Source of the DNA: Flavobacteriaceae bacterium
GTDB taxonomy: Bacteria; Bacteroidota; Bacteroidia; Flavobacteriales; Flavobacteriaceae
Assembly (NCBI GenBank): GCA_013042315.1
Contig: JABDQM010000040.1
Span: 1 to 32,068 of the forward strand
DNA length: 32,068 nucleotides
Reading direction: 5' to 3'
Shown here piece after piece: positions 889 to 31,984 of the stretch; within the stretch, counting starts at the first letter, position 1; every line of letters starts with the position of its first letter. Both the position numbers and the translations under genes were made by a program. The notes below the pieces were generated by a model that was not told the DNA's origin, did not search any database, and saw only the letters and a list, made by a program, of their open reading frames with translations.

Positions 889-1881
889 TTAGTTATATGC
901 CCATTTTAAATATATAGAGCCCCAGGTGAAACCACCGCCAAAAGCGGCAAACACCAGGTTGTCTCCTTTTTTCAACTGCTTTTCATAATCGCTCAGTAAA
1001 AGCGGTAAGGTAGCAGAGGTAGTATTGCCATATCGCTGAATGTTCATCATCACTTTAGCAGGATCAAGACCCATTCTATTCGAGGTGGCATCAATAATTC
1101 GTTTATTCGCCTGGTGAGGAACCAGCCATTGTACGTCATCGTGTGAGAGATCATTTCTTTCCATGATGCGCGCTGCGACATCTGCCATATTTGAAACGGC
1201 AAATTTAAAAACCGACTTCCCATCCTGGAAGACGTAATGCTGTTTGTTCTTCACAGTTTCTTCTGAAGGTGGAAGCAGAGATCCGCCGGCTTCAATTTTT
1301 AGAAACTCTCTTCCATTGCCGTCAGACCTGAGGTACTCATCAAGTAACCCCAATCCCTCCGTATTCGGTTCAAATAAAACCGCACCTGCTCCATCACCAA
1401 AAATAATACAGGTGGTCCTGTCTGTGTAATCGAGGATCGATGACATTTTATCAGCCCCGATCAGCAGTACTTTTTTATACTTCCCTGATTCTATATAGCG
1501 AGCAGCCGTAGACATCCCGTAGAGGAAATTACAACATGCAGCCTGCAAATCATAAGCAAAAGCATTCACTGCTCCAATTTTACTAGCCACGTAAACCGCC
1601 GTTGATGCTACTGGAAGGTCTGGAGTGGCCGTTCCCAAAACAACGAGGTCGATCTCGGCGGGGTCAATATTTGATTTTGCTATGAGGTCCTCAGCTGCTT
1701 TAATAGCCAGATAGGAGGTGCCTTTATCTTTATCCTTAAGGATTCTGCGCTCTTTTATTCCTGTACGGGTGGTAATCCATTCATCTGTGGTTTCCACCAT
1801 GGTTTCCAGGATCTTATTGGTTAACCTGTAGTCTGGCACAAAGGCCCCCACAGCTGTAATCGCTGCTGTAATTTTGGTCAT
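889..1881 (-). CDS. fabH: Beta-ketoacyl-ACP synthase III (KAS III)
   Basis: A 330-residue thiolase-fold enzyme that condenses an acyl-CoA primer with malonyl-ACP to start fatty-acid synthesis. The catalytic triad is visible: Cys116 in QAACCNF, His256 in VPHQANKRI and Asn286 in RYGNTTSA. The N-terminal TTDEWITTRTGIKERR stretch is characteristic of FabH. A second cysteine (Cys117) follows the nucleophile where many homologues have Ala or Ser. It lies downstream of the rpmF terminator and upstream of accB. Flavobacteria use branched primers, so this copy probably takes iso/anteiso acyl-CoAs as well as acetyl-CoA (inference from the group). Confidence 0.95.
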   Translation of the reverse strand: MTKITAAITAVGAFVPDYRLTNKILETMVETTDEWITTRTGIKERRILKDKDKGTSYLAIKAAEDLIAKSNIDPAEIDLVVLGTATPDLPVASTAVYVASKIGAVNAFAYDLQAACCNFLYGMSTAARYIESGKYKKVLLIGADKMSSILDYTDRTTCIIFGDGAGAVLFEPNTEGLGLLDEYLRSDGNGREFLKIEAGGSLLPPSEETVKNKQHYVFQDGKSVFKFAVSNMADVAARIMERNDLSHDDVQWLVPHQANKRIIDATSNRMGLDPAKVMMNIQRYGNTTSATLPLLLSDYEKQLKKGDNLVFAAFGGGFTWGSIYLKWAYN

Positions 1882-1999
1882 GCGAACAAGAGTTTTATAA
1901 GGAAACCTTTAAAAATGCTCCAAAAGTGGTGAAAAATAGTGATTTTTTATGACTTTTTTGATCAAAATAGTGCTTTTTCGGCCTTTACCTAGCGGCCAT

Positions 2000-2029
2000 A
2001 AAAAAACTCCCATTGTAGTAAATGGGAGT
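2000..2029 (-). terminator. Rho-independent terminator after rpmF
   Basis: Read on the minus strand, the arms ACTCCCATT and AATGGGAGT form a 9-bp stem around a short loop and are followed by a run of seven T residues. It sits about 20 bases beyond the rpmF stop, so it probably ends or attenuates the DUF177-rpmF transcript before fabH. Confidence 0.85.
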
Positions 2030-2048
2030 CTTTGATCTTATTTCAGAA

Positions 2049-2246
2049 TTAAGCCGAAACTTCTTCCGATTTGTCTATAAGCACCTGGCCTCGGTAGTAT
2101 AATTTACCTTCATGCCAATGAGCTCTGTGATACAAATGCACTTCTCCTGTTGTAGGATCTTTTGCAAGAGTTGGAGCTACCGCTTTGTAATGAGTTCTTC
2201 TCTTGTCTCTTCTGGTTCTGGAAATTTTCCTTTTAGGATGTGCCAT
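2049..2246 (-). CDS. rpmF: 50S ribosomal protein L32
   Basis: A 65-residue basic protein beginning [20 protein letters not shown], the standard bacterial L32 N-terminus. It is a structural component of the large ribosomal subunit. The zinc-binding cysteines of some L32 proteins are absent, so this is the zinc-independent form. It follows the DUF177 gene with only 8 bases between them, the pairing seen across bacteria, and a strong hairpin terminator lies just downstream. Confidence 0.97.
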
Positions 2247-2254
2247 CGCGACTA

Positions 2255-2785
2255 TTATTTATCCGTTAGTAAATTTTTTAAAGCATCCCATCGGGGATCT
2301 GTATTATCGTTGTTATTTGATTCTTTTGGCTGCAATTCTTCTAGCTTTTTCAAGGCCTCCGACTTGAGTGTTCCGTCCTCCACTCCAGGGTGGATCCTTT
2401 TTTGTGGTACGGCAAGTACAAGCATCTCGTAAATATATTGCGCTATATTGAACTGATGCTCCCCATGAGGAATAACCAGAATCTCATCGTCCTCGTCATT
2501 GTATTCTTCTCCAAACTTTACCACAAGCGGTAAAGATGCAGAAACTTCCAGATCAAAGGGCTCGTTGGTAAGGTCACAAGCTACATTGACTGTTCCGTGA
2601 GCTTCCATTTCCAGTTCCATTACCGTACTCGTTTTGTTAAAATGAACTTTAACCGAAATATCGGTTTCATTAAACTCATAGTACTCAAAAGATTCAAAGA
2701 ACGAATTATTTATTTGATACTCAAACGAGTGTGCCCCTACTTTTAATCCTGAAAAAGGAATTATAAATTCCTTACGCGTCGTCAT
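2255..2785 (-). CDS. DUF177 (YceD-like) protein linked to L32
   Basis: A 176-residue DUF177/YceD-family protein. These proteins are encoded next to rpmF in most bacteria and have been linked to 23S rRNA or large-subunit maturation; the molecular role in Bacteroidota is not established. The acidic central part contains [12 protein letters not shown] and an EEYNDEDDE patch, and the C-terminal [11 protein letters not shown] motif is typical of the family. The longest reading frame begins at a TTG (2794). I chose the ATG at 2785 because it gives [11 protein letters not shown] and leaves a plausible leader after the promoter at 2809-2838. Confidence 0.85.
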
Positions 2786-2808
2786 TGTGTTCAATCGTTT
2801 AAGGCGTG

Positions 2809-2838
2809 CAAAGATAAAATTATTTTACCAAATGCAAA
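2809..2838 (-). promoter_or_regulatory. Bacteroidota-type promoter for DUF177-rpmF
   Basis: On the minus strand a TTTG (complement of 2835-2838) is followed after 18 bases by TATCTTTG (complement of 2809-2816). This is an exact match to the TTTG / TAnnTTTG consensus of the Bacteroidota primary sigma factor. It lies 24 bases before the DUF177 ATG. It is the cleanest promoter in the window. Confidence 0.75.
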
Positions 2839-2892
2839 TCAATTTGTCAATTATTTAAGCCTCTTTTCCTCAAGGAGATGCCAAATTCAGGA

Positions 2893-3951
2893 CTATCCCT
2901 GAGAAGCCCTTGCTTTTTGCTTCCGCAAAGGGTTTTTTGAGATCTCCTCATAATCCTGCCTGTTCCTGTAAATCTTTATCGCGGTAAACACAGCTTCCTT
3001 AAAGGAACCCGGGTCTGCCTTACCCTTCCCGGCTATCTCATAAGCAGTACCGTGATCAGGGGAAGTCCTGACCCTGTTCAATCCGGCGGTAAAGTTTACA
3101 CCTTGACCAAAGGATAAGGTTTTGAAAGGAATAAGTCCCTGGTCGTGGTAGGCCGCAAGGATGGCGTCAAATTGCTTGTAGACATCTGAACCAAAAAAAC
3201 TATCGGCAGCATAAGGCCCGAAGATCAGCTTTCCGTTGTTGACCATTTCTTTTATTACGGGTCTCAATACCTCATCATCTTCCTTGCCAATAACACCATT
3301 GTCGCCACTGTGAGGATTGATTCCCAACATGGCAATTTTTGGCTTTGTGATCGCAAAATCCATTTTCAGGCTTTTCTCTATAATGTCGATCTTATTTCTG
3401 ATCCTTTTTGAGGTGATGTTCTCGGCCACATCTTTCACCGCCACATGGTCTGTTAATAGTCCCACCTTAAGGGTGTCTGTCACCATGAACATCAAACTCT
3501 CCCCTCCCAGTTCCTGGGCCAGATAATCCGTATGGCCCGGGAAATTAAAGTCCTCAGCCTGAATATTTTTTTTGTTTATAGGTGCTGTTACCAGGACGTC
3601 AATTTCGTTATTCTGGAGTGCCTTTACTGCTGCTTTGAGGGATTGAATCGCAAATTGTCCCGCTTCTGCTGTCTCTTTCCCGTATTGTATTGCCGGAGTT
3701 TGTTTCCAGACGTTTACAACATTGAGTTTTCCCGAAATCGCCTGAGACGCCCGATCCACACCGTGAAAGGTGATGTCTATTCCCAGGTCGGATTTTTGCT
3801 GACTTATGGTCTTATTTGAAGCAAAAATTACCGGGGTACACAACTCCAGCATACGGCTGTCTTCGAAAGTTTTCAGGATTACTTCACACCCAATACCATT
3901 GAGGTCTCCCACTGAAATCCCTACCTTAATATTTGCACTTTCCTTCTTCAT
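2893..3951 (-). CDS. pdxA: 4-hydroxythreonine-4-phosphate dehydrogenase
   Basis: A 352-residue PdxA that oxidises 4-phosphohydroxy-L-threonine with NAD in the DXP-dependent pyridoxal-phosphate pathway. The motifs seen are VTAPINKKN, FPGHTDYLA with a metal-ligand His, LGINPHSGDNG, AAYHDQGLIPFK with the second metal-binding His-Asp, and TSPDHGTAYEIAGKG near the C-terminus. All the expected metal and substrate residues are there. It lies upstream of DUF177-rpmF on the same strand with a promoter between them, and is divergent from riboflavin synthase, a common flavobacterial arrangement. Confidence 0.96.
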   Translation of the reverse strand: MKKESANIKVGISVGDLNGIGCEVILKTFEDSRMLELCTPVIFASNKTISQQKSDLGIDITFHGVDRASQAISGKLNVVNVWKQTPAIQYGKETAEAGQFAIQSLKAAVKALQNNEIDVLVTAPINKKNIQAEDFNFPGHTDYLAQELGGESLMFMVTDTLKVGLLTDHVAVKDVAENITSKRIRNKIDIIEKSLKMDFAITKPKIAMLGINPHSGDNGVIGKEDDEVLRPVIKEMVNNGKLIFGPYAADSFFGSDVYKQFDAILAAYHDQGLIPFKTLSFGQGVNFTAGLNRVRTSPDHGTAYEIAGKGKADPGSFKEAVFTAIKIYRNRQDYEEISKNPLRKQKARASQG

Positions 3952-4018
3952 ATATCTTGTCTTTGCCTTACCTTTGTCGTTTTAAATTAAGGCTGAAGGC
4001 ACTTCTTTTTATTTAGTT

Positions 4019-4056
4019 CAAAAATACGGTATTAAGACCTTCCCGGCGGCCAAAAA
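4019..4056 (-). promoter_or_regulatory. Possible pdxA promoter
   Basis: On the minus strand TATTTTTG (complement of 4019-4026) matches the TAnnTTTG -7 consensus exactly. A TTTTTG (complement of 4051-4056) lies 24 bases upstream, a wider spacing than the usual 18-21. It sits in the divergent pdxA-ribE intergenic region, about 68 bases before the pdxA ATG. Confidence 0.4.
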
Positions 4057-4079
4057 CACTCTTTTTTAACCCCCCTGAC

Positions 4080-4667
4080 ATGTTTACAGGAATAATAGAA
4101 ACCCTTGGTAAGATCACAAACCTTCAAAAAGAAGGCAGCAACCTACACCTTACGATCTCTACCGAAATCGCATCCGAACTCAAAATCGATCAAAGTGTTG
4201 CACACAATGGTGTTTGCCTTACCGTAGTGGGAATTGAAGGTGAATCCTATACGGTAACCGCCATAGAGGAAACCCTCCTGAAATCTAACCTCAGTGATCT
4301 TAAAACGGGAGACCTGGTAAACCTCGAACGGGCTATGATTCTCGGCACAAGGCTCGATGGTCATATCGTACAAGGCCACGTGGATACCACCGGCTCCTGC
4401 ACTAAAATTGAACAAAAAGACGGCAGTTGGTACTTTACTTTTAGTTACCCTGCAAAACCAAATGATGTCACTATCGAAAAAGGGTCTATAACGGTAGACG
4501 GGGTAAGCCTAACCGTTGTCGATTCAGAGGAGAGTAGCTTTAGTGTAGCCATTATTCCCTACACCTATGAGCACACCCGATTTAAACAGTACGAAATCGG
4601 TACTAGGGTAAATTTGGAATTTGATGTCATAGGGAAATACGTTGCCCGACTCCTCAGCAACCGTTGA
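4080..4667 (+). CDS. ribE: Riboflavin synthase, alpha subunit
   Basis: A 195-residue riboflavin synthase that dismutates two 6,7-dimethyl-8-ribityllumazine molecules into riboflavin and the pyrimidinedione. It begins MFTGIIETLGKI, the invariant N-terminus of the family, and contains two tandem lumazine-binding beta-barrel domains (about 1-95 and 96-190). The second opens with LDGHIVQGHVDTTG and includes KGSITVDGVSLTVV. Length is normal. It is divergent from pdxA and converges on the ligase operon, with 10 bases between stop codons and no clear terminator. Confidence 0.96.
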   Translation: MFTGIIETLGKITNLQKEGSNLHLTISTEIASELKIDQSVAHNGVCLTVVGIEGESYTVTAIEETLLKSNLSDLKTGDLVNLERAMILGTRLDGHIVQGHVDTTGSCTKIEQKDGSWYFTFSYPAKPNDVTIEKGSITVDGVSLTVVDSEESSFSVAIIPYTYEHTRFKQYEIGTRVNLEFDVIGKYVARLLSNR

Positions 4668-27539: not shown

Positions 27540-29360
27540 GTGAGAACGCAGACATGGTACATCTTGATTTTTATTTTCCTGTTTGAAGGAACAGGGCAAG
27601 TATTGGCTCAAAACCAAAGTTTGGCAGATAGTCTTATATTAAGATTGAAGGAGCATAGAGGCTCGAATGACAGCCTTCCCCTTAATTGGTTATCAAAGAT
27701 CTCTTTTAACCATAATAAGCCCGATAGTGCGTTGTATTATGCACGCCAATTAATGTCTGAAACTGATGACCCTTATTGGTTATTACAGGCACACTATAAT
27801 GAAGGGTCTGCCCTGCGTATTATGGGTAACCTGGAAGGCTCCCTCCAATCGTATTTTAAAAGCCTTGAGTACGCTCAGCAATTGGGTGACAAAAAAAGGG
27901 AAGGTAATGCCTATATAGCGATCGGGGATGTCTATTCGGTATCCGGCGCCCATAAGAATTCTACCGATTATTATTCCAAATCTATCCCAATATTCAGGGA
28001 AATAAAAGATTCGGTAAAACTGGCTACTGCATTGTTCAATGCCGGTGATGAATATCTCAATCAGGATAGTCTTGTTACCGCTGTTACTCATTTCAACGAA
28101 TCTGCACAGCTTTTTGGACTCCTTGGATACGCCATAGGCGTGGCATATAACCTGGGGAACATGGGCTTGGTCTATGCCATGCAAGGCAATGATGCTTTGG
28201 CCCTCGATAATATCAATGAGGCTATCACCCTCCTTGAGAAACAAAAAGACTATTATGGAATTGCGGCATATCTCACGTTTATGTCTGATGTTTACATCAA
28301 CAAGGGCGATCTTCCTGCCGCCCTGGATTATGCTGAGCGGAGCCTTAAACTGGCTTCGGATTATGGTCTGAAAGATCAAATGAGCGAAACCAATCTGAGG
28401 CTGTCCACGCTACACGAGCAAATGGGGAATGCTGATAGATCTTATAAATATTATAAAGACCATATCGCCTTTCGCGACAGTGTAAGAAATATGGAGTCGA
28501 TTCAACAAATGGCCGATCTGGAAACAAAATACCAGGTAGAACAAAAAGAAGCTGAAAAGGAGGCGGAAATTGCAATCGTTAATCAACAAAAAAGGAACCA
28601 GCGAATTATTGCAGTGGCGACGGTGTTTTTGATAGGAATATTTGCAGTTGGACTTTATAGAAGGAATAAATTTATTCAAAAAACAAAGCGGATCATTGAA
28701 AAGGAGAGAGATAGGTCTGAGGCTTTGCTGCTCAACATACTGCCAGAAGAAATCGCCGAAGAACTTAAAGCCAATGGGAAAGCTGAAGCTCGTGAGTTTG
28801 ATCAAGTCTCTATTCTGTTTTCCGATTTTAAGGAATTTACCCAAACCGCCGAAAAGTTATCCGCCAAAGAATTGGTAAGTGAAATCAATCATTGTTTCAA
28901 AGCCTTTGATCTTATCTGTGAAAGATTTGATTTGGAAAAAATAAAGACCATAGGGGATGCCTTTATGGCTGCGGGCGGACTTCCGGTGCCCTCGAATGTA
29001 GCGGTAAAAAATATTGTCCTGGCGGGGCTCGAAATGCAACGCTTTATTGTGGAACGAAAAATACAAATGGACACCGAAGGAAAACCGGCTTTCGAAATGC
29101 GTCTGGGTATCCATACCGGCCCTGTGGTGGCTGGCATTGTCGGGGTCAAAAAGTTTCAGTACGACTTATGGGGTGATACCGTAAATACAGCTTCCCGGAT
29201 GGAGAGCAACAGTGAAGTGGGAAAGGTTAACATTTCCCAGCACACCTATGAGCTATTGCAGGATGATCCTGATCTGAAATTTGAGAAAAGAGGAAAGGTA
29301 GAAGTAAAGGGAAAAGGAGCAATGGAAATGTATTTTGTAAGCCTCAAAACCGCAGCCTGA
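27540..29360 (+). CDS. TPR-containing membrane adenylate cyclase (class III)
   Basis: A 606-residue sensor-type cyclase. Residues 1-23 form a signal peptide (WYILIFIFLFEGTGQVLAQ). Residues about 50-315 hold TPR-type repeats (ALRIMGNLEGSLQSYFKSLE, LGNMGLVYAMQGNDALALDN, GDLPAALDYAERSLKLASDY), predicted periplasmic. A short coiled-coil (320-352) precedes one membrane helix (about 354-373). Residues 420-600 form the catalytic domain: metal ligands Asp429 (ILFSDF) and Asp473 (TIGDAF), adenine-specifying Lys469 and Asp542, transition-state Asn549 and Arg553 (DTVNTASR), and VKGKG. These residues indicate ATP and cAMP rather than cGMP. The start is GTG at 27540; no usable ATG precedes the signal peptide. 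Confidence 0.92.
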   Translation: MRTQTWYILIFIFLFEGTGQVLAQNQSLADSLILRLKEHRGSNDSLPLNWLSKISFNHNKPDSALYYARQLMSETDDPYWLLQAHYNEGSALRIMGNLEGSLQSYFKSLEYAQQLGDKKREGNAYIAIGDVYSVSGAHKNSTDYYSKSIPIFREIKDSVKLATALFNAGDEYLNQDSLVTAVTHFNESAQLFGLLGYAIGVAYNLGNMGLVYAMQGNDALALDNINEAITLLEKQKDYYGIAAYLTFMSDVYINKGDLPAALDYAERSLKLASDYGLKDQMSETNLRLSTLHEQMGNADRSYKYYKDHIAFRDSVRNMESIQQMADLETKYQVEQKEAEKEAEIAIVNQQKRNQRIIAVATVFLIGIFAVGLYRRNKFIQKTKRIIEKERDRSEALLLNILPEEIAEELKANGKAEAREFDQVSILFSDFKEFTQTAEKLSAKELVSEINHCFKAFDLICERFDLEKIKTIGDAFMAAGGLPVPSNVAVKNIVLAGLEMQRFIVERKIQMDTEGKPAFEMRLGIHTGPVVAGIVGVKKFQYDLWGDTVNTASRMESNSEVGKVNISQHTYELLQDDPDLKFEKRGKVEVKGKGAMEMYFVSLKTAA

Positions 29361-29484: not shown

Positions 29485-30336
29485 ATGAAGTTTATGCGAA
29501 ATCTCAACTCAATTTTGTGCCCCTTATTGACCATGGTGATTCTGCTTTTGGGAATTACATCTTGTGAAACCAAAGAAGAAAAAGAGCCCGAAGAGCTCAG
29601 GGAAATGGTGGAGATGGTCACAGATAAAGGAACCATGCGTATCGCCCTGTATAATGAAACGCCGCAGCACCGGGACAATTTCTTAAAACTAGCCAGTGAG
29701 GGAGCCTATGACAGCCTTTTATTTCACAGAGTGATTGAAAACTTTATGGTGCAGGGAGGCGATCCGGAGAGTAAAATCGCTCAAGCCGGAGATACGCTTG
29801 GCAACGGGGACCTCGCATATACAGTACCAGCAGAATTCCATCCAGAACTGTTCCACAAAAAGGGAGCCCTTGCTGCAGCCAGGACCGGCAATCCTGAACG
29901 GGCTTCAAGCGCCATGCAATTCTACCTGGTTCAGGGAAATGTTCTTAATGACACCCTGCTTGAAGAAGCTGAAGTATTTATCAACGAATGGTTGGCAGAG
30001 TATTACGTGCTTCACGATCCTCAGAACGAAGAGCTGTACCAGGCCATTAAAAAGGCAAATTCTGCAGAAAACTGGAGGGAATTCCGGATCCTTCAAGACA
30101 GTGTTATCAACATGGGGAAAACCTATACCAATTTTGAGAAGTATTCCATCCCGGAAGCTCATCAGGAAGTGTATAAAACTTTGGGAGGAACTGCCTTTCT
30201 GGATCAGAATTACACGGTATTTGGGGAAGTAGTGGAGGGGATGGATGTCATCGACTCTATCGCCAAAGTACAAACGGGTGACATGAATCGGCCTTTGGAA
30301 GATGTTAGAATTCTTAGTCTGAAAGTGGTGGAATAG
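29485..30336 (+). CDS. Peptidyl-prolyl cis-trans isomerase lipoprotein (cyclophilin type)
   Basis: A 283-residue exported cyclophilin. The signal ends LLLGITSC, with lipobox Cys27. The cyclophilin domain shows MVTDKGTMRIALYNETP, LLFHRVIENFMVQGGDPES (the catalytic Arg follows FH), GALAAARTGNPERASSAMQF and NYTVFGEVVEGMDVIDSI. Between SSAMQFYLVQG and the LDQNYTVFG strand there is an insertion of about 75 residues, rich in charged helices (LLEEAEVFINEWLAEYY), seen in Bacteroidota members. It acts in protein folding in the periplasm. A near-consensus -7 (TATCTTTA, 29423-29430) lies upstream. It is probably separate from the cyclase gene. Confidence 0.92.
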   Translation: MKFMRNLNSILCPLLTMVILLLGITSCETKEEKEPEELREMVEMVTDKGTMRIALYNETPQHRDNFLKLASEGAYDSLLFHRVIENFMVQGGDPESKIAQAGDTLGNGDLAYTVPAEFHPELFHKKGALAAARTGNPERASSAMQFYLVQGNVLNDTLLEEAEVFINEWLAEYYVLHDPQNEELYQAIKKANSAENWREFRILQDSVINMGKTYTNFEKYSIPEAHQEVYKTLGGTAFLDQNYTVFGEVVEGMDVIDSIAKVQTGDMNRPLEDVRILSLKVVE

Positions 30337-30386
30337 GTAAGCACGATAAAAGTATCGCTATCATACAGCGGTGAATTTTTATCATA

Positions 30387-31160
30387 TCAGTTTTCTAGCT
30401 CCATTTCCATGTTGATCAGGCGAATTATCTCTTCGCACATGGCTTTCATTTCACTAAATTGACCGTTCATTACAGAAAATTCATAAACGGCCATCACAAA
30501 GCCGTTCTTTTGTTTCAGGTCTTTGAGCATGGTTTCGTAGTTTGCCCTTGGCAGGGCGATGTTCTCCCCTGCTTTGCCCTCAGTGACCTGATAGGTAAAG
30601 TTTTTAACAATAGGATTCAGGTCGAGTACCGAATACGAAGGCTCATAGAGCAAAACCTCAGCATCATAGCGGAAGTGTTCCTCTTCATTCTTTAGTTTCT
30701 TGTACAGTGCCTGCAGGTTAAGCAGGCCGTTTTTAATGCTGTCGTTGGAGATCAGGGCCAGGTTTCCCGAATTAATGAGTTCCTGAAAGGTATTATCCTG
30801 CTGGGTAAACTTCTGCCAGATATAGACGTTGGTAGTATGAAAAGCAAAGGCATTCAGGTCGGTTAGCGGCTTGCCCTCAAAATGTTCTAAAACAATTCTT
30901 GCCGATTCAATTCCAGAATTTCTAGTAGTAATATAGCGGTCCAGTTCAGCAATATTCAGAATAAGGTCGGTTTTCAAGTTTTTCAGATAGTGCAACTCCT
31001 GCTCCCTTTGTTTTCGGGCTTCGTTGGAATTGTTGATCTGCAGGGCGATCAGTATCCCGATAACGACCAATAGTATTTCCCCAATGGCGTAGAGAAAGTA
31101 TTTGGAAACCTTGTTTTCGTTAAGGAGTCTTTGCCTGATTCTTCTGAAGAATTTGATCAT
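30387..31160 (-). CDS. DUF6090 family membrane protein
   Basis: A 257-residue protein beginning MIKFFRRIRQRLLNENKVSK, then a single membrane helix YAIGEILLVVIGILIALQIN, the signature of the DUF6090 family, common and often multicopy in Flavobacteriia. The rest is a predicted helical soluble domain (KNLKTDLILNIAELDRYI ... EMKAMCEEIIRLINMEMELE). Function unknown. It converges on the cyclophilin gene (50-base gap) and has no obvious operon partner. Confidence 0.88.
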   Translation of the reverse strand: MIKFFRRIRQRLLNENKVSKYFLYAIGEILLVVIGILIALQINNSNEARKQREQELHYLKNLKTDLILNIAELDRYITTRNSGIESARIVLEHFEGKPLTDLNAFAFHTTNVYIWQKFTQQDNTFQELINSGNLALISNDSIKNGLLNLQALYKKLKNEEEHFRYDAEVLLYEPSYSVLDLNPIVKNFTYQVTEGKAGENIALPRANYETMLKDLKQKNGFVMAVYEFSVMNGQFSEMKAMCEEIIRLINMEMELEN

Positions 31161-31447
31161 GGGCGGGGGGTTGGTTTTACTCTACCTAATGTACTTAATT
31201 ATTTAGAATCATATCGATGCCTGATTGTAAAACTCAGGCCTCTCTCCTTATCTAATTTATTTCTGATGTAGTGATCTGACTCAGATAAAATTTGCAAAAG
31301 AGATTTATTGCATAGGATTTTCTCAAATTTCCTTTCTCTTTCTACCTTTAAAGAGGTTGCGACATCGCAAAATAAGTAGTAATATTGCATGCTCTTTGCC
31401 GGGGTTATTTCTTTCTTGTGAAGAAGTAAACGACAAAGATTGACATA

Positions 31448-31705
31448 GTGAAAGTGTATGTGCTTCGAAGTGAACAAGACGGCAGGTTTTATGTAGGTAT
31501 GAGTTCGGATATCGAAAAAAGAATTATTGCACATAATTCTGGAAGAACAAAAAGTACAAAAGGGTATCGTCCATGGAAATTAATACATTTAGAGGACTAT
31601 CCAGAAAGAACTTCAGCAAGAAAAAGGGAGAAATATCTAAAAAGTGGATATGGAAAACAGTGGCTGAAGAAAAAGTACGCTAACGTTCATAAAGAAGAAG
31701 AATAA
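31448..31705 (+). CDS. GIY-YIG nuclease-fold protein (UvrC/YhbQ-like small form)
   Basis: An 85-residue protein consisting of one GIY-YIG domain: VYVLRSEQDGRFYVGMSSDI supplies the paired strands (here VYV...YVG), followed by RIIAHNSGRTKSTKGYRPWK with the conserved Arg and ERTSARKREKYLKSGYGKQW with the Glu-bearing helix. The start is GTG (31448); no ATG gives a complete first strand. Such small stand-alone proteins are frequent in Flavobacteriia, often beside rRNA or tRNA genes, and their substrate is unproven. Here a CAU tRNA and a broken tRNA copy follow within 165 bases. Confidence 0.85.
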   Translation: MKVYVLRSEQDGRFYVGMSSDIEKRIIAHNSGRTKSTKGYRPWKLIHLEDYPERTSARKREKYLKSGYGKQWLKKKYANVHKEEE

Positions 31706-31708
31706 AGG

Positions 31709-31765
31709 TCCTGCCTACCTGTTTAAGGCAGGCGGGCCTGCCCACCTGGCGGTATGGCAGGTGGG
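31709..31765. repeat. G+C-rich palindromic repeats beside the broken tRNA
   Basis: CCTGCC (31710-31715) pairs with GGCAGG (31727-31732). CCCACCTG (31741-31748) pairs with CAGGTGGG (31758-31765), an 8-bp stem around a 9-base loop. The stretch has related CCTGCC/ACC units and no coding potential, and lies between the GIY-YIG gene and the tRNA remnant. It resembles a REP-like intergenic element. Confidence 0.5.
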
Positions 31766-31828
31766 TAGCTCAGCTGGTTATCTACTGGTCTATCGACACA
31801 GCAGACAGGGAGCACCTGACTCATAATC
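31766..31828 (+). pseudogene. Broken copy of the CAU tRNA with a 29-base interruption
   Basis: TAGCTCAGCTGGTTA (31766-31780) is identical to the D-arm region of the intact tRNA downstream. After 29 unrelated bases (31781-31809), GAGCACCTGACTCATAATC (31810-31828) is identical to the rest of the D stem and the anticodon arm including CAT. The T arm and 3' acceptor are missing, so it cannot fold as a tRNA. It is best read as a partial duplication of the neighbouring gene. Confidence 0.7.
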
Positions 31829-31841
31829 TCTCTGAGATTAC

Positions 31842-31849
31842 TATTTTTG
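31842..31849 (+). promoter_or_regulatory. Possible -7 element for the CAU tRNA
   Basis: TATTTTTG matches TAnnTTTG and lies 18 bases before the tRNA 5' end, the right distance for a short precursor leader. No TTTG is present at the -33 position, which falls within the tRNA remnant. Confidence 0.4.
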
Positions 31850-31867
31850 ACATTTTGATTTTATAAC

Positions 31868-31941
31868 GGTCCTATAGCTCAGCTGGTTAGAGCACCTGAC
31901 TCATAATCAGGGGGTCCCTGGTTCGAGCCCAGGTGGGACCA
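31868..31941 (+). tRNA. tRNA with CAU anticodon (elongator Met or lysidine-type Ile2)
   Basis: A 74-base cloverleaf. The acceptor GGTCCTA pairs with TGGGACC (one T-G pair), then discriminator A. D stem GCTC/GAGC, anticodon stem CCTGA/TCAGG with loop CTCATAA, variable GGGTC, T stem CCTGG/CCAGG with loop TTCGAGC. The G1-C72 pair excludes an initiator tRNA. C4-G69 and C5-G68 are present, a feature that in E. coli helps TilS recognise Ile2, so the Ile2 reading is possible; elongator Met is the alternative. CCA is not fully encoded (ACA follows). A terminator follows. Confidence 0.95.
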
Positions 31942-31951
31942 CATCAAGCGC

Positions 31952-31984
31952 AAACCCCCACTCCGCAAGGAGTGAGGGTTTTTT
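31952..31984 (+). terminator. Rho-independent terminator after the tRNA
   Basis: AAACCCCCACTCC pairs with GGAGTGAGGGTTT (one mismatch) around a GCAA tetraloop, followed by a T run. It lies 11 bases past the tRNA. Confidence 0.88.

Follow-up and report, generated by a model that had tools for sequence, protein, structure and literature searches.

SegB of the T-even phages appears to be the closest demonstrated precedent for the locus described here, and the two would work alike without being close in sequence. SegB is a GIY-YIG enzyme that cuts in tRNA genes and is required for the tandem amplification of segB together with tRNA (PMC13096335). Among the free-standing endonucleases of T4, embedded host promoters are reported to hinder loss (PMC2988022). 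Integrative elements and group I introns also use a tRNA gene as their site and leave a working tRNA behind (for introns, PMC3984707).

The present locus lies at the end of one of the 399 contigs of a Flavobacteriaceae bacterium (JABDQM010000040.1), of which the whole analysed stretch of 32,068 nucleotides is called the window below. A GIY-YIG gene and an intact CAU tRNA are found there with a tRNA half-copy in between (Table 1), and it is fairly probable that the locus belongs, in partly decayed form, to a large family of GIY-YIG elements of the homing type that target tRNA genes. The recurring unit consists of a hairpin-interrupted tRNA half-copy, a minimal GIY-YIG gene under purifying selection and an intact tRNA. 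Two layouts occur, namely the 5' type, in which a tRNA 5' half with hairpin is followed by the GIY-YIG gene and the intact tRNA, and the mirror layout or 3' type, in which the intact tRNA is followed by the GIY-YIG gene and a 3' half. As with SegB, the gene stands beside tRNA genes on the same strand (T4 segB lies 5 nt before tRNA-Arg), and its position between promoter and tRNA in the 5' type would act like the promoter embedding in T4. SegB is, however, a phage protein of 221 aa, whereas the proteins here are chromosomal, 80-90 aa long and grouped by tRNA isotype, and a hairpin-interrupted tRNA half is not described for SegB. In contrast to integrative elements and group I introns, the units are without integrase or intron RNA, and the tRNA is kept by means of a duplicated part. 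An integrase-type element was ruled out, as the units (roughly 300-450 bp) hold a GIY-YIG gene as their sole ORF, and so was a group I intron in the window, where an Rfam scan finds the tRNA alone. REP palindromes with RAYT transposases offer a further likeness in that palindromes are dispersed in the genome as well as inside the half-copies, but RAYT was not seen in the units and the palindromes also occur apart from GIY-YIG genes.

Table 1. Features of the tRNA(CAU) locus in window coordinates.
Feature	Positions	Strand	Basis or remark
Native tRNA promoter region (...AAAATAAGTAGTAATATTGCA)	31357..31389	+	now 5' of the nuclease gene; kept in five congeners
Block in common with L135 (leader, GIY-YIG gene, tRNA half-copy, tail)	31433..31867	+	
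GIY-YIG nuclease ORF, 85 aa, GTG start	31448..31705	+	PF01541, E=5.6e-16
Half-copy piece 1, GGTCCT (tRNA positions 1-6)	31707..31712	+	sequence
Palindromic insert 1, two neighbouring hairpins (second at 31737-31765)	31713..31765	+	folding
Half-copy piece 2, tRNA positions 8-22 (D arm)	31766..31780	+	exact 15-base match to 31875-31889
Palindromic insert 2, eroded hairpin at the D-loop/D-stem border (between 22 and 23)	31781..31809	+	intact homologue in L135
Half-copy piece 3, tRNA positions 23-41 (D stem 3' strand, anticodon arm)	31810..31828	+	exact 19-base match to 31890-31908
Probable remains of a second GIY-YIG gene, deleted so that its start and end are fused (inferred)	31829..31867	+	
Intact tRNA(CAU)	31868..31942	+	ARAGORN; Rfam RF00005, E=1.9e-13
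Terminator-like hairpin 3' of the tRNA	31959..31974	+	

An earlier, sequence-only reading of the window had reported the GIY-YIG gene beside the tRNA, the two exact matches to the intact tRNA(CAU) and the lack of a T arm in the remnant, and all of these were confirmed. It was right about a split copy but placed its start too late, as the remnant begins at the GGTCCT behind the gene, and the REP-like palindromes it had noticed are present but lie inside the remnant, one of them inserted after position 6. The 29 bases between the matches that it took to be foreign are an eroded hairpin. Their counterpart at L135, a locus of an uncultured Eudoraea, is the clear palindrome CCTGCCTGAAGGCAAGGCAGACAGG, and a homologous hairpin is also found in another genus (89 bp, 72%, E=2e-9). 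Insert 1 folds with -29.7 kcal/mol, better than 500 of its 500 shuffles, and no further copy of it was found within the window. It is related to an insert in genome G199, from another genus, which lies between tRNA positions 9 and 10; the homologous unit there retains positions 1-9 where the first piece of the window half-copy has positions 1-6.

The block from leader to tail matches L135 at 79% over 442 bp, although at L135 it sits 5' of the tRNA promoter, unlike in the window. The sequence TTGACATTTTGA (31847-31858), in front of the intact tRNA, repeats the nuclease leader TTGACATAGTGA (31440-31451) with the shared pattern TTGACAT..TGA, and in both G199 and L145 an intact second nuclease ORF stands where the window has only the short fused stretch. 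From this leader repeat and the second gene in the relatives, it can be suggested that the window once held a second unit and that its locus is probably a partly decayed two-unit array; there would have been two units at first, after which the second nuclease gene was deleted and the left half-copy lost. The intact tRNA(CAU) is the single full-length copy found in the genome. Although called as Met by its anticodon, it is possibly a lysidine tRNA-Ile, in view of C4-G69 and C5-G68, which we take to be TilS determinants and read as pointing to Ile2. Further upstream, window positions 27540-29360 encode a TPR-repeat protein with an adenylate/guanylate cyclase domain (PF00211, E=1.5e-58).

The nuclease shows the hallmarks of the GIY-YIG superfamily, with Y4, Y15, G17, R25, H29 and E61 invariant among 12 diverse members. 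The window protein is 82% identical to that of L135 with a dN/dS of 0.06, and values of 0.06-0.18 over the pairs with measurable dS indicate purifying selection. A single-sequence model predicted the order E-E-H-E-H-H with moderate confidence (pLDDT 72), and a fold search with this model gave weak matches only, the best being 1zg2 (E=0.017). By sequence, the best solved-structure matches are UPF0213 (PDB 1zg2 and 1ywl) and SLX1, with E=3e-13 and 2e-9, and the protein is nearer to these than to the homing enzymes in the PDB. UPF0213 proteins have a similar single-domain size; to our knowledge, UPF0213-type proteins have not been found at tRNA genes or in arrays. SLX1 acts with a partner in the repair of branched DNA. 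No kinship to SegB or I-TevI beyond the GIY-YIG motif was detected, as an hhalign comparison of profile A1 with SegB gave a probability of 2.5. Judged by this failed profile comparison, and with no DNA-binding region, the family is not a member of the SegB family. The 85 residues form one domain, in which no separate DNA-binding region was found, while known homing endonucleases carry a DNA-binding domain besides the nuclease domain. The group I intron endonuclease model scored far below its cut-off and PADLOC gave no convincing defence match. A typical phage or plasmid gene was rejected on searches of phages, plasmids and viral contigs; the phage collections held distant GIY-YIG proteins of Rhizobium phages and one metagenomic phage match (~39% over 63 residues), the plasmid collections none and the viral contigs one.

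Relatives of the window protein occur in 67 of 201 genomes of the family, and a profile search found relatives in 175 of 297 sampled Bacteroidota genomes. The contig scan was run with a narrower profile, A2, because A1 is too diverse. The named scan gave 80 loci, mostly from Bacteroidota, with a few in records titled Patescibacteria and one titled Nitrospirae. Among 155 non-redundant loci, in which related loci are not independent, an intact tRNA lies within 300 bp at 133 (104 downstream and 29 upstream), and at every one of these 133 it is on the same strand as the nuclease. Fragments of tRNA, or a tRNA at a slightly greater distance, are present at most of the other 22, and no clear tRNA fragment was found at L004, L041, L043, L118 and L126. 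No tRNA was found within ~3 kb of ten control loci of another gene. Since the loci were retrieved by nuclease similarity and not by tRNA, the adjacency is not built into the sample. The layout is also present in single-contig genomes (e.g., G199, G153 and G207), which rules out an assembly artefact. The same layout is found throughout Bacteroidota, and the idea that the remnant is a single isolated scar is not supported. The comparative data agree well with the proposal of a duplication driven by a nuclease at the tRNA, and the link between GIY-YIG gene and tRNA remnant is general and not accidental.

The half-copies have the isotype of the adjacent tRNA. The longest exact match between flank and tRNA has a median of 22 nt at 102 5'-type loci and of 20 nt in the 3' type, compared with 6-7 nt in controls with shuffled flanks or other isotypes. 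Matches of at least 13 nt were seen with the own tRNA at 86 of the 102 loci, with shuffled flanks at none and with tRNAs of other isotypes at one. Similarly, 73 of 127 nucleases have their nearest relative at the same tRNA, whereas 500 shuffles gave a mean of 9.3 and a maximum of 19. The nucleases are thus grouped by tRNA isotype, and the window protein falls with those of CAU tRNAs starting with GGTCC(T/C)A; switches of isotype are seen, often among arginine tRNAs. In 70 of 104 5'-type units the stop codon of the ORF lies within the tRNA, mostly as the TAG of positions 8-10 or 21-23.

The hairpins that interrupt the half-copies are mostly of the type CCTGCC...GGCAGG. Of 37 clean breaks, 20 fall exactly at the D-loop/D-stem border, 5 immediately precede the D stem and 6 lie within the T loop, and 34 spare the stem strands where about 51% would be expected to do so. 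The break between positions 22 and 23, where insert 2 of the window sits, is common to 18 of the distinct 5'-type inserts, and 53 of 74 inserts have a more stable fold than 95% of the sequences obtained by shuffling them. One reading of this pattern is that the nuclease acts at the RNA level on transcripts of the tRNA or its half, the half-copy being a functional RNA such as a decoy, guide or regulator. The sparing of tRNA stems and the location of the 5'-type half-copy within the presumed 5' leader of the nuclease mRNA would agree with such a role. We nevertheless think it very unlikely, given that the 3'-type half-copy stands behind the gene and that half-copies decay, as the window shows, and vary in extent, the last tRNA position retained lying anywhere from 16 to beyond 50.

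Alternatively, the hairpins themselves could be mobile, with REP-like palindromes entering tRNA-like DNA where its loops are single-stranded, and with the GIY-YIG protein as a structure-specific transposition enzyme. The insertions do fall between stems, the nuclease has kinship to the structure-selective SLX1, and the perfect palindrome CCTGCCTGCCGGCAGGCAGG is dispersed in several genomes in up to 15 copies (control 0). However, many of these copies lie far from tRNA genes and GIY-YIG genes, and no close copy was found in the window genome, so that we regard this explanation as highly improbable. The dispersal of CCTGCCTGCCGGCAGGCAGG, partly away from tRNA, indicates that the hairpins are part of a broader family of repeats which also lands in half-copies. 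A search of 40 relatives that allowed up to two mismatches gave no copy of the 30-nt Met-type hairpin, which is therefore not a dispersed repeat there in that form. At L215 (positions 1478-1774, G199), two 3'-end copies of tRNA-Thr(GGT), positions 50-73, each stand next to CCTGCCTGCCGGCAGGCAGG without a GIY-YIG gene, likely as a scar of the mirror type.

Comparison within the genus of the window genome shows how the units relate to the tRNA promoter. The -7 region TAGTAATATTGCA, which ends at 31389, is conserved before the CAU tRNA in six genomes of the genus. It lies 10 nt from the tRNA in the empty allele of G007, 65-100 nt in G001, G002, G003 and G008, which carry short scars, and 478 nt in the window. 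G003 is syntenic with the window both upstream (window 30204-31396, ~82%) and from the tRNA onward; its gap between promoter and tRNA is 58 bp against 471 bp in the window, and the block in common with L135 is absent there. With the conserved -7 region standing 5' of the GIY-YIG gene, the suggestion that the remnant matters mainly through a -33 box is poorly supported. A second -7 box may be represented by TATTTTTG (31842-31849), although this motif occurs at chance frequency in the window.

At the tRNA-Leu(CAA) locus of the same genus, the allele is empty in G001 and G006, occupied in G002, and scarred without the gene in G003 and G008. The occupied G002 allele reads, from the left flank, tRNA positions 1-24, a hairpin, tRNA positions 24-32, the GIY-YIG gene, the intact tRNA and the right flank. 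Both flanks align to the empty allele, and the unit is accordingly present as an insertion that has spared the tRNA and left either flank where it was. For tRNA-Leu (G001 and G006 against G002) and for the CAU tRNA (G007 against the window), a single site thus exists both unoccupied and occupied, as looked for in a homing element. The intact tRNA-Leu is 100% identical between occupied G002, empty G001 and scarred G003, which implies that self-cutting is either avoided by context or tolerated. Recognition may include the promoter-side flank, now missing from the intact copy, and the adjacent tRNA would survive for this reason. Remnants without a GIY-YIG gene, which had been named in advance as a sign that the two are unrelated, do exist (at the CAU tRNA in G001, G002, G003 and G008, and at tRNA-Leu in G003 and G008). 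They do not prove unrelatedness, because they look like deletion scars of the unit and because occupied and empty alleles coexist.

The units occur in tandem in many genomes (e.g., 8, 4 or 3 copies) and decay to scars. In G199, two tandem units, each with hairpins between positions 9 and 10 and between 22 and 23, precede the same CAU tRNA. Ordinary unequal recombination could be the source of such arrays, and in a broader form of this argument the nuclease is a resident, non-homing repair enzyme that has long stood at tRNA genes, where half-copies and arrays arose only from unequal recombination between tRNA repeats. Near-identical tandem units are the expected product of unequal crossing-over, and the sequence kinship to UPF0213 and SLX1 nucleases would suit a repair enzyme. 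We consider this explanation unlikely in view of the empty, occupied and scarred alleles at one syntenic locus in one genus, the different isotypes occupied in its species, the mirroring of the 5' and 3' types, and the occurrence in records titled Patescibacteria and Nitrospirae.

Several other arrays and neighbourhoods were observed. L044 (positions 1389-4255, contig C34 of G184) holds eight tandem GIY-YIG copies and terminator-like hairpins, with hairpin-broken tRNA 3' halves between the copies in the stretch that was read; an intact tRNA was not detected across its 6 kb. At L013 (1729-2200) and L014 (1729-2090), at least four tandem remnants of tRNA-Pro(GGG), spaced ~97 bp apart, extend from the GIY-YIG gene to the intact tRNA, and these remnant arrays are without additional nuclease genes. 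The second GIY-YIG gene of the window genome (L002, positions 1-2122 of contig C220 of G000; subfamily MILPYCVYVLQSEKD) lies ~260 bp behind a 3' fragment of tRNA-Asn (L002:119-137), and its relatives stand 160-400 bp behind tRNA-Asn in other genomes. At L173 (2222-2671), directly behind a unit of GIY-YIG gene and tRNA half, a tRNA-Asn(GTT) is split between positions 34 and 35 by a group I intron (RF00028, L173:2358-2624, E=1.6e-16).

A free-standing homing-type element specialised on tRNA genes is, in our judgement, the best reading of these data, with cleavage and transfer as inferred steps, and a nuclease-driven process of this type would be the simplest cause of the unit anatomy. The nuclease would cut an unoccupied tRNA gene in the part from the D arm to the anticodon (5' type) or from the anticodon to the T loop (3' type), and recombinational repair would then copy the unit in from an occupied copy. 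The unit would bring sufficient tRNA sequence to restore an intact gene, with one half being displaced. In the 5' type, the nuclease gene could then be read from the tRNA's own promoter, and since it stands between this promoter and the tRNA, deletion of both would presumably harm the tRNA. With a hairpin in it, the displaced half may be lost as a second target and recombine less with the intact tRNA. Arrays could grow by repeated cutting or unequal recombination, where repair that starts at a neighbouring unit leads to tandem growth. A more specific version, in which a structure-selective minimal nuclease recognises cloverleaf-like foldbacks of tRNA-gene DNA and cuts their loops while genomic palindromes seal, mark and immunise the cut sites, seems rather doubtful.

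A literature search of open-licence papers found no published description of this arrangement of GIY-YIG gene and tRNA half, and tRNA neighbourhoods are not discussed in the 2006 survey of GIY-YIG proteins. If the homing-type reading is true, tRNA-specialised selfish elements exist in cellular chromosomes as a bacterial counterpart of SegB, and these would shape tRNA promoters and tRNA-gene scars throughout a phylum. The isotype-grouped enzymes would offer a set for the direct comparison of DNA specificity. Furthermore, such elements would account for many of the odd tRNA fragments, repeats in tandem and broken contigs in the vicinity of tRNA genes.
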